A DNA stretch of 37,026 nucleotides from Rhodospirillales bacterium (GTDB lineage Bacteria; Pseudomonadota; Alphaproteobacteria; Reyranellales; Reyranellaceae), in assembly GCA_016191685.1 (NCBI GenBank), contig JACPVT010000144.1:1-37026 (forward strand), read 5' to 3'. Both the position numbers and the translations under genes were made by a program. Under the pieces are notes generated by a model. That model saw only the letters and a program-made list of their open reading frames with translations. It did not search any database and was not told the origin of the DNA. Below are positions 11,345 through 14,669 of this stretch, piece after piece (positions within the stretch are counted from its first letter, which is position 1; each line of letters opens with the position of its first letter).

Positions 11345-12493
11345 TCAGACCCCGCTCACGTCGAACATGTCGAGCAGGCCCTCGCCGAAACCCGGTCCGC
11401 GATCGGCCGGCTGGCCGATCGAGGCGCCGTCAGGTGCGCCGTAGAGCCAGAGTTCGGCCGCGATCAGGCGCAGCGTGCGATGCATAACCCACGGCCAGCC
11501 GAGGCCGAGCGTCACGACGATGATGAGGTAGTTCAGGACCAGGAAGCCCCACATCTGCCGCGTCGTGATCGCGGTCGCAAACAGCACATTGCCGGCGCGG
11601 CTGTGCGACACGAGATAGCGGAACCAGTAGGCCTGCCACCAGCAGCGCAGCGGCAGGATCAGCAGGCTGAAGACCAGGTAGACGCCGACCGCGAGGGCCA
11701 CCGCCACCAGCACGGTGCGCAGGCTGGGCTCGGTGAAGAGGGCCAGGAACTCCTCGGAGGTAATGCCCAATTCCTCGGCGGTGCCGCCCACGATGGCGAA
11801 CGCGGCGACGATGGCCACGATCCACGCCACGATGTTCAGGAAATAGTAGCCGAGGAAGCGGCCGTAGATGTCGCCGGCGCTGCCGGCGAAGGCGAGCGGC
11901 AACGTACCGAGCCGGGCGTTGGATATGCGCGGGCGGGCGAGATTGACCGACACGACCGGGGTCAGCAGAAGGCCGGTCATGGCGTTGGCGAAATGCAGGA
12001 ATGTCGCCACGACACCGTAGTGCCAGGCCGAGCCCGCCATGCCGCAGCGGATGCCGCGCCAGCGCGTGCGCGAAAGCTTGTAGCGCAGGCCGGCATAGTG
12101 GCCGACGTAGGCGAGCGGAAATCCGATCACCGCCACCGACAGGGAGAAGAGGTCGAACATCCCGAAAGTGGCGAACGGCTTTTCGTGGAAAACGTGGATC
12201 CAGGCCAGCCACATCAGGCCTGCCCAGGCCGCGAGCAGCACCACGGCGAGTAGAAAGCCAATCAGCAGTTCGCGGCCGCGACCGCGATATTCGAACCGGT
12301 CGCCCAGGATCGACAGGTGATTCCACACGTAGCGGCGCAGCCGGGTGCGACCCCAGAAGCGCGACCAGCCAAGCGTCAGCACCATCAGCACGACATGGCG
12401 GAGATAGATGGCGTAGAGCTCGCCCAAGCCGCCGTCATAGACCGGGCGGCTGGGTGTCAGGTCCGGCGCGGCGGGCGCAGGCGCGGCAGCCAC
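11345..12493 (-). CDS. DUF898 (YjgN-like) multi-pass membrane protein
   Basis: About six to eight membrane helices can be seen. The family motif LYAIYLRHVVLMVLTLGWSRFWGRTRLRRYVWNH lies near the N-terminus, and parts of this pattern recur (FLGYYFLNIVAWIV; TRQMWGFLVLNYLIIVVTLGLGWPWVMHRT), suggesting internal repeats of a two-helix unit. Function is unknown. The 452-residue ORF in the track starts inside the divergent ecm gene, so its first ~70 residues are probably not real. I place the start at a GTG at 12493 after a G-rich stretch, with low certainty; the mature protein begins near LTPSRPVYDGG. It is co-transcribed with the M48 peptidase (2-bp gap). Confidence 0.75.
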   Translation of the reverse strand: MAAAPAPAAPDLTPSRPVYDGGLGELYAIYLRHVVLMVLTLGWSRFWGRTRLRRYVWNHLSILGDRFEYRGRGRELLIGFLLAVVLLAAWAGLMWLAWIHVFHEKPFATFGMFDLFSLSVAVIGFPLAYVGHYAGLRYKLSRTRWRGIRCGMAGSAWHYGVVATFLHFANAMTGLLLTPVVSVNLARPRISNARLGTLPLAFAGSAGDIYGRFLGYYFLNIVAWIVAIVAAFAIVGGTAEELGITSEEFLALFTEPSLRTVLVAVALAVGVYLVFSLLILPLRCWWQAYWFRYLVSHSRAGNVLFATAITTRQMWGFLVLNYLIIVVTLGLGWPWVMHRTLRLIAAELWLYGAPDGASIGQPADRGPGFGEGLLDMFDVSGV

Positions 12494-12597
12494 AAAGGCG
12501 CCCCCGGGCGGGCTCCCCGCCGCCTGGCCCCTTCCCGTCTCAGTCCATGGGGAAGTCGTGTCGCTCAAGGACGGCCCGGATCGCTCGGATGCACTGC

Positions 12598-12624
12598 GGA
12601 ATATTCCATGCTGCGGTGCAGCAT
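12598..12624. promoter_or_regulatory. Two adjacent palindromes upstream of ecm (possible PhaR-type site)
   Basis: GGAATATTCC (12598-12607) is directly followed by ATGCTGC-GGT-GCAGCAT (12608-12624), a perfect 7-bp inverted repeat. The core reads CTGC-N3-GCAG. From memory, the polyhydroxybutyrate regulator PhaR of Rhodobacter-type bacteria binds CTGC-N3/4-GCAG. The site is about 48 bp before the ecm ATG, in the divergent gap shared with the DUF898 gene. Regulation by PhaR is inference. Confidence 0.5.
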
Positions 12625-12671
12625 CTATTGGTGTAGGTGAGTGTACGTCAACCCTGCCATTGGCCGCCACC

Positions 12672-14669
12672 ATGACCCAGACCATCCGTGACGACGCGCC
12701 CAAGAAGGATCGGCCCTGGCTGATCCGGACCTACGCCGGCCATTCGACGGCGGAAAAGTCGAACGAGCTCTATCGCACCAACCTGGCGCGCGGGCAGACC
12801 GGCCTCAGCGTCGCCTTCGATCTGCCGACGCAGACGGGCTACGACAGCGACCATGCGCTGGCGCGCGGCGAGGTCGGCAAGGTCGGCGTCCCGATCAGCC
12901 ATCTCGGCGACATGCGCACGCTGTTCGACGGCATCCCGCTCGACAGGATGAACACGTCGATGACCATCAACGCGCCGGCGGCGTGGCTGCTGTCTCTCTA
13001 TATAGCGGCGGGTGAAGCGCAGGGCGTGGCACGCGACAAACTGCAGGGCACGACGCAGAACGACATCATCAAGGAATATCTTTCCCGCGGGACTTACATC
13101 TTCCCGCCCGAACCGTCGCTCAGGCTGACGGCCGACACGATCGGCTTCACCTATCGCGAGGTTCCCAAGTGGAACCCGATGAACGTCTGCAGCTATCACC
13201 TGCAGGAAGCCGGCGCCACGCCGGTGCAGGAGCTGGCCTTCTCGCTGGCCAACGCGATTGCCGTGCTCGATGCCGTGAAGGCACGGGGCCAGGTGCCCGA
13301 TGCCGACTTCCCGCAGGTGGTGGGCCGCATCTCCTTCTTCGTGAATGCCGGCATCCGCTTCGTCACCGAGATGTGCAAGATGCGGGCCTTCGCCGAGCTG
13401 TGGGACGACATCACGCTCAACCGCTATGGCGTCGCCGACGCCAAGCAGCGGCTGTTCCGCTACGGCGTGCAGGTGAATTCGCTCGGCCTCACCGAGCAGC
13501 AGCCGGAGAACAACGTCTACCGCATCCTCCTGGAAATGCTGGCGGTGGTGATGAGCAAGAACGCCCGCGCCCGCTCGGTGCAGCTGCCGGCATGGAACGA
13601 GGCGCTGGGCCTGCCACGGCCGTGGGACCAGCAATGGTCGCTCCGGCTGCAGCAGATCGTGGCCTTCGAGACCGATCTCCTGGAATACGGCGACATCTTC
13701 GACGGCAGCACCGAGATCGCGCGCAAGGTCCAGTCTCTCAAGAAAGAGACATTGGCTGAGATGGCGCGCATCGACGACATCGGCGGCGCGGTGGCGGCCA
13801 TCGAGGCAGCCTACATGAAGCAGCGCCTGGTCGAGTCGAACCTCCGGCGGCTCGCGGCCATCGAGGCCGGCGAGCAGACGGTGGTCGGCGTCAATGCCTT
13901 CACCGAGGCCGAAGCCTCGCCGCTGTCGACCGGCGCCGGTTCGATCATGACCGTCGACGCCGCGGTCGAGAGCGGCCAGATCGAGCGGCTCAAGGCCTGG
14001 CGCGCGGCGCGCGATGCGGCCGCCGTGAAGAAGGTGCTGGCCGAACTGGCCTCGGCCGCCAAGGAAGACCGCAACGTCATGCCGGCCTCGATCGCCTGCG
14101 CCCAGGCCGGCGTCACGACCGGCGAATGGACCGATACGCTCCGCGCCGTGTTCGGCGAATATCGCGCCCCGACCGGCGTCGCTCGCGCCGCCGGCGTGAG
14201 CGACGGCAGGCTCGAAGCCGTGCGCCGCGAGGTCGACACCGTTTCACGGCGATTGGGCCGGCGCATAAAGATCCTGGTCGGCAAGCCCGGCCTCGACGGC
14301 CATTCCAACGGCGCCGAGCAGATCGCCGTGCGTGCCCGCGACTGCGGCATGGAGGTGGTCTACGAGGGCATCCGCCTCACGCCCGAGCGCATCGTCAATG
14401 CGGCACTCGAGGAGAGCGTGCACGTGGTCGGGCTCTCGATCCTTTCGGGCGGCCATGTCTCGCTGGTCGGCGACGTGCTGGCCGGCCTGCGCGCCGCCGG
14501 CATCGGCGACGTGCCGGTGGTGGTGGGCGGCATCATCCCGCCGGCCGACGCCGAAGCGTTGCTCAAGGCAGGCGTGGCGCGCGTCTACACGCCCAAGGAT
14601 TTCGACCTGACGCAAATCATGCGCGATGTCGTGGCGGTCGTGGACTCAGCCTGGAAAGAGGCGGCGTAA
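12672..14669 (+). CDS. ecm: Ethylmalonyl-CoA mutase (MeaA-type), adenosylcobalamin-dependent
   Basis: The protein has 665 residues. It rearranges (2R)-ethylmalonyl-CoA to methylsuccinyl-CoA in the ethylmalonyl-CoA pathway, which replaces the glyoxylate shunt for growth on C2 or C1 compounds. The substrate barrel has RTYAGHSTAEKSNELYR, LSVAFDLPTQTGYDSDH, QGTTQNDIIKEYLSRGTYIF and NVCSYHLQEAGATPVQEL. The B12-binding domain follows with D542-x-H544-x-x-G547 (GLDGHSNGAEQ) and SILSGGHVSL. I recognise the sequence as the MeaA/Ecm branch rather than classical methylmalonyl-CoA mutase, notably by LPAWNEALGLPRPWDQQWSL. The track start at 12558 overlaps the divergent gene; the ATG at 12672 matches family starts, although no ribosome site is obvious. 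Crotonyl-CoA carboxylase/reductase is not in this window. Confidence 0.93.
   Translation: MTQTIRDDAPKKDRPWLIRTYAGHSTAEKSNELYRTNLARGQTGLSVAFDLPTQTGYDSDHALARGEVGKVGVPISHLGDMRTLFDGIPLDRMNTSMTINAPAAWLLSLYIAAGEAQGVARDKLQGTTQNDIIKEYLSRGTYIFPPEPSLRLTADTIGFTYREVPKWNPMNVCSYHLQEAGATPVQELAFSLANAIAVLDAVKARGQVPDADFPQVVGRISFFVNAGIRFVTEMCKMRAFAELWDDITLNRYGVADAKQRLFRYGVQVNSLGLTEQQPENNVYRILLEMLAVVMSKNARARSVQLPAWNEALGLPRPWDQQWSLRLQQIVAFETDLLEYGDIFDGSTEIARKVQSLKKETLAEMARIDDIGGAVAAIEAAYMKQRLVESNLRRLAAIEAGEQTVVGVNAFTEAEASPLSTGAGSIMTVDAAVESGQIERLKAWRAARDAAAVKKVLAELASAAKEDRNVMPASIACAQAGVTTGEWTDTLRAVFGEYRAPTGVARAAGVSDGRLEAVRREVDTVSRRLGRRIKILVGKPGLDGHSNGAEQIAVRARDCGMEVVYEGIRLTPERIVNAALEESVHVVGLSILSGGHVSLVGDVLAGLRAAGIGDVPVVVGGIIPPADAEALLKAGVARVYTPKDFDLTQIMRDVVAVVDSAWKEAA

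Follow-up and report, generated by a model that had tools for sequence, protein, structure and literature searches.

What is the role of a perfect inverted repeat that stands directly before ecm, the gene for ethylmalonyl-CoA mutase, in a Reyranella genome? The stretch of DNA analysed here (37 kb, hereafter referred to as the window) comes from the Reyranella MAG G000 (3.8 Mb, 390 contigs, 75% complete). An earlier note had read the repeat as a possible site for PhaR, which would tie the ethylmalonyl-CoA pathway to the polyhydroxybutyrate (PHB) state of the cell. Here we put a probability of roughly 80% on the reading that the element before ecm is a two-site operator for PhaR (AniA), a PHB-responsive repressor, with PhaR repressing ecm and ccr and PHB relieving this repression.

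The ecm locus

The repeat ATGCTGC-GGT-GCAGCAT was found where the earlier note had described it, at positions 12608–12624 directly after GGAATATTCC (12598–12607); it is a perfect inverted repeat and is unique within the window. It lies inside the 103-bp gap between ecm (12672–14669, plus strand) and a divergent DUF898 gene (11345–12568, minus strand), the TTG start of which, at position 12568, was placed by alignment with the [ATG]TG-AGC codons in relatives. The repeat is thus intergenic. The distance of 48 bp that the earlier note had given was right in placing the repeat just upstream of ecm, and counts as 47 bases between the end of the repeat and the ATG at 12672, a start shared by the aligned relatives.

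The ecm product is an acyl-CoA mutase that scores 562.7 bits, below the methylmalonyl-CoA mutase equivalog cut-off of 876. It is about 89–97% identical within Reyranella and 68–77% identical in other alphaproteobacteria, and most relatives encode a separate second mutase that is about 42% identical to it. The score below the cut-off, together with the second mutase of the relatives, makes the assignment as ethylmalonyl-CoA mutase well supported though not proven.

Two PhaR-type sites 22 bp apart

Viewed as a bare inverted repeat, the palindrome is unremarkable: perfect inverted repeats with 7-bp arms are common in this GC-rich window, which contains 8 of them with a loop of 3 bases and 78 when loops of 0–8 bases are allowed. 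The plain motif CTGC-N3/4-GCAG occurs at 375 places in the genome versus 515 for the reversed control pattern and, being no commoner than this control, is by itself no evidence. We therefore scored the window with a PhaR matrix built from 17 Sinorhizobium meliloti sites rated efficient in EMSA (PMC12542648, table), which is independent of the window genome and was applied to Reyranella solely because the DNA-binding domain is conserved. The top match in the window, at 17.3 bits, is the candidate operator site II (12606–12626), a 21-bp matrix window that encloses the palindrome, with the core TGCGGTGCA at 12612–12620; about 0.5 matches per Mb with at least this score are expected by chance in random DNA with matching dinucleotide composition. 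The second-ranked match, at 11.3 bits, is the candidate operator site I (12584–12604; core TGCACTGCG at 12590–12598), a companion exactly 22 bp upstream that the earlier description of a single site had missed. Both cores fit the palindrome YGC-RNY-GCR, and the two sites form the sole pair of YGCRNYGCR cores 20–24 bp apart in the window. Site II sits at the lower edge of the verified S. meliloti sites (17.4–29.7 bits), and site I is weaker than these.

At the genome scale, the stringent pattern TKNTGCRNYGCANMA occurs at 13 places versus 1 for the reversed control; these places include ecm, both phasin regions and the ispDF / nifR3-like intergenic region, and several others are coding. A scan with TTGCRNYGCAA gave 16 places versus 5 for its control, most of them coding, and is not usable as support.

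Conservation within Reyranella

We compared the regions before ecm at 50 loci of Reyranella genomes; these sequences are related, so that the loci cannot be counted as independent cases. All 50 promoters retain site II, and its arms, ATGCTGC...GCA, are identical in 48; one change is found in L145, and L160 also keeps the site. Across these 48 promoters the arms are invariant while the neighbouring bases drift, and the centre triplet takes ten values that are always R-N-Y (AAT, GAC, GGT, GAT, GGC, AAC, GCT, AGC, GTT and GCC). The YGCRNYGCR core of site I lies at exactly 22 bp in 44 of the 48; among the other four it is at 20 bp in one and degraded in three. The upstream regions of 20 Reyranella methylmalonyl-CoA mutase genes, taken as a negative control, contained no PhaR-type site (best score 5.3 bits). 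The matrix and this conservation support the earlier reading as a PhaR site, with the correction that the discriminating motif is TGC-RNY-GCA with its flanks, and not CTGC-N3/4-GCAG.

Other elements of these promoters behave differently. We rejected GGAATATTCC as a conserved palindromic element, since the alignments show free variation in which AT-richness alone is kept; the palindrome that the earlier note had singled out as a neighbour of the repeat is incidental, an AT-rich spacer between sites I and II. Column conservation marks a second leader block, GGTGTAGGTGAGTGTACG (12630–12647, plus strand), where a GGTGTAG...GTNTAC dyad is conserved directly after site II. In short-leader relatives, the counterpart of this dyad encloses the Shine-Dalgarno sequence right before the ATG. 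In the long-leader group, which includes the window, about 20 nt separate the dyad from the ecm ATG, and the window ATG is preceded by GCCGCCACC, without a clear Shine-Dalgarno sequence. At L160, the ecm locus of G046, two stop codons (TAG and TAA) interrupt the ecm frame, with the two operator sites still intact; the stops may reflect a sequencing error or a recent pseudogene.

PhaR, phasin and ccr genes

The window genome encodes one protein with the PF07879 (PHB_acc_N) domain (106.5 bits), which also passes the TIGR01848 PhaR cut-off (149.2 versus 109.45), and a PHA synthase gene, phaC, is found as well. The earlier note had made its proposal depend on the motif recurring at other PhaR targets in this genome, and it does: PhaR-type sites precede two of the three phasin genes (29.1/20.9 and 21.2/13.6 bits) and ccr (13.6 bits). 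The upstream region of the third phasin gene (L165) contains no such site. Before phaR itself there is no strong operator, just a weak CGCAGTGCG in the upstream region; the S. meliloti phaR region likewise binds PhaR weakly (PMC12542648). These sites before ecm and ccr, with phaR in the same genome, support the proposed tie between the ethylmalonyl-CoA pathway and the PHB state.

The pattern recurs across the genus. One class of Reyranella phasin promoters has two or three sites (pairs of about 21–30 and 15–24 bits), and Reyranella ccr promoters have one PhaR-type site each (about 12–18 bits), with TTGTGCRTTGC at one place in 25 aligned ccr promoters and, in many, an additional and weaker core close to the ribosome-binding site. 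In Reyranella, ecm and ccr lie apart, each preceded by a PhaR-type site of its own.

The scan of the window genome also returned sites at other genes. A very strong PhaR-type site of 26.2 bits (L234 1498–1518; G000:C316:1675) separates ispDF from a divergent nifR3/dusB-like gene; the latter may be the first gene of an ntrBC operon, which would suggest a possible link between PHB and nitrogen. Another (L235; G000:C330:2631) is common to a phasin gene and a divergent wax ester synthase/diacylglycerol acyltransferase-like gene. A 22.7-bit site (L002 1498–1518; G000:C207:4341) falls inside a coding frame near the protein start, and may be an operator or a coding coincidence.

Enrichment before ecm in other alphaproteobacteria

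Outside the genus, we sampled 76 other alphaproteobacterial ecm upstream regions of 250 bp each. Matches of at least 16 bits occur in 41 of the 76, versus 0.7% of 2,564 windows of the same size elsewhere in those loci. Because these control windows are mostly coding, we added two composition-matched controls. TGC-RNY-GCA is present in 46 of the 76 regions, and each of 11 anagram palindromes in 0–3; at the 1% matrix threshold, 45 of the 76 pass, versus a mean of 1 and a maximum of 7 for 200 column-permuted matrices. Moreover, the gap between the arms peaks sharply at 3 (47 loci versus 4–18 for other gaps). The observation of a putative PhaR site is confirmed and stronger than first proposed, and the pattern reaches far beyond the window genome.

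The strict core is missing in 30 of the 76 regions. We rejected a missing phaR as the cause, since phaR is present in all 20 genomes checked, several of them without an ecm site; PhaR control of ecm would thus not be universal. Outside Reyranella, ccr is often the divergent neighbour of ecm (the opposite strand encodes the N-terminus of its product, KDLYEIGEIPPLGHVP), so one site may serve both genes in those genomes. Reyranella is alone in having the tandem 22-bp layout. Magnetospirillum-like genomes have a longer conserved block, TTTCTTCGCAATGCACAAAATGATAGTTTG, which may include another factor. An identical 21-mer, TTTCTTCGCAATGCACAAAAT, lies upstream of ecm at six loci from several genera (L024, L026, L028, L031, L032 and L039), and at most of these loci forms part of a longer stretch of conservation.

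Comparison with known systems

The Reyranella sites share the core YGCRNYGCR with the S. meliloti PhaR/AniA sites of phaP1, phaP2 and rpoE8/acyP, and the S. meliloti phasin promoters carry two site copies each, like the two-site ecm operator proposed here (PMC12542648). The S. meliloti rpoE8/acyP site TAATGCTGCAGTGCAGCATCT, from a region efficiently bound by PhaR, is near-identical to site II, with the arms ATGCTGC/GCAGCAT (PMC12542648). However, no gene of the ethylmalonyl-CoA pathway appears in the S. meliloti site table (PMC12542648), whereas the Reyranella target is ecm, and the spacing of 22 bp in all but a few Reyranella ecm promoters is unlike the S. meliloti arrangement. The Rhodobacter sphaeroides PhaR site CTGCNNNGCAG (cited in PMC12542648), known from phasin control, has the same 11-bp form as is found within site II, although this short form alone is not discriminating in the window genome.

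Two other regulators offer functional parallels. RamB of Paracoccus denitrificans, like PhaR in the role proposed here, links acetyl-CoA assimilation routes at the transcriptional level, but its targets are glyoxylate cycle genes (PMC10370305). CcrR of Methylobacterium extorquens (cited in PMC10370305) also regulates an ethylmalonyl-CoA pathway gene, and is a TetR-family activator, whereas PhaR is a PHB-sensing repressor.

Alternative explanations

The inferred start of DUF898 is some 20 bp away from site I, and a minority of the S. meliloti motif genes are activated by PhaR (PMC12542648). The sites could therefore be PhaR operators that act as activation sites, or mainly for the divergent DUF898 gene with ecm as a bystander. 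We consider this unlikely, given that the site also accompanies ecm where a lineage has ccr or some other neighbour beside it, and that the Reyranella ccr gene, away from DUF898, also has such a site. Recognition by another factor with a TGC-RNY-GCA-like site, such as an NtrC-, ScfR/RamB- or CcrR-type regulator, seems less probable again: although NtrC sites likewise have TGC...GCA arms, these are separated by 11 bases rather than the 3 found here, and although the regulators with an actual link to glyoxylate-cycle or ethylmalonyl-CoA genes are RamB and CcrR, the same motif precedes phasin genes, the classical PhaR targets, in a genome with one PHB_acc_N protein.

The palindrome could also act in RNA, as a hairpin or attenuator in the ecm leader, and its stem does appear in the predicted fold. 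Yet the leader folds no better than its shuffles (z = 0.49) and has no Rfam match, an A breaks one stem pair in 15 of the 48 promoters without compensation, and the RNY-constrained loop has no RNA explanation, all of which makes such a role very improbable. That the repeat is a functionless chance palindrome might be argued from the approximately 78 with 7-bp arms in the window, but is contradicted by the invariant arms in 48 promoters amid drift and by the class-wide enrichment, and we give it next to no credence.

Proposed mechanism

For the two-site PhaR operator, the arrangement suggests how repression might work. A PhaR oligomer could occupy both sites, about two helical turns (22 bp) apart, side by side and block RNA polymerase; the ecm promoter at which it would do so probably overlaps sites I and II. 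Possible −35 (TYGGCT) and −10 (YATGCT) elements overlap the sites, and this overlap makes the two kinds of motif inseparable by conservation; with these elements, the promoter spacer would contain site I, and site II would cover the −10. The S. meliloti PhaR is a repressor of phasin and depolymerase genes and is sequestered by PHB (PMC12542648). By analogy, PhaR would keep ecm down when PHB is lacking, and PHB granules would pull PhaR off the DNA, so that derepressed ecm and ccr would let crotonyl-CoA and ethylmalonyl-CoA enter the ethylmalonyl-CoA pathway. The sign of control, PhaR binding and the ecm start site are inferred. The putative PhaR site before ecm points to on–off switching of the pathway by the storage state of the cell.

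The pathway is likely to matter in this genus. No full-length isocitrate lyase was found in 31 Reyranella genomes; partial matches, covering about 90–130 of 526 positions and mostly in short proteins, were rejected as genuine lyases and taken as superfamily members. With no full-length enzyme seen, Reyranella probably needs the ethylmalonyl-CoA route to use acetyl-CoA or PHB, and hence to build cell material from them.

Implications

In Methylobacterium, PhaR is reported to affect acetyl-CoA partitioning (PMC6520949), and the main text of this Methylorubrum phaR-mutant transcriptome paper makes no mention of ecm or ccr, which counts against the PhaR reading. Our search, confined to openly readable literature, returned no report of PhaR control of either gene. 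The operator is of a known kind; judged from that literature, its ecm target and broad conservation appear not to have been described before, and priority is uncertain.

Most of the sampled alphaproteobacterial ecm loci have a PhaR-type site upstream of the gene, and in Reyranella such sites precede ecm and ccr alike. We lean towards the view that direct PhaR control of ecm (and, where tested, of ccr) is a regulon link both ancient and widespread in Alphaproteobacteria, by which PHB granules would switch acetyl-CoA assimilation. The mechanism that upregulates the ethylmalonyl-CoA pathway "remains enigmatic" (PMC10370305), and a PhaR operator would offer a simple and directly testable answer, namely that the cell reads its PHB store. 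A study of Methylobacterium describes ecm as a control point and found that overexpressing it lowered PHB 4.5-fold (PMC4846091); since the level of ecm changes PHB content there, PhaR control of this gene would close a loop between storage and assimilation, of relevance to the engineering of producers of PHB and dicarboxylic acids.
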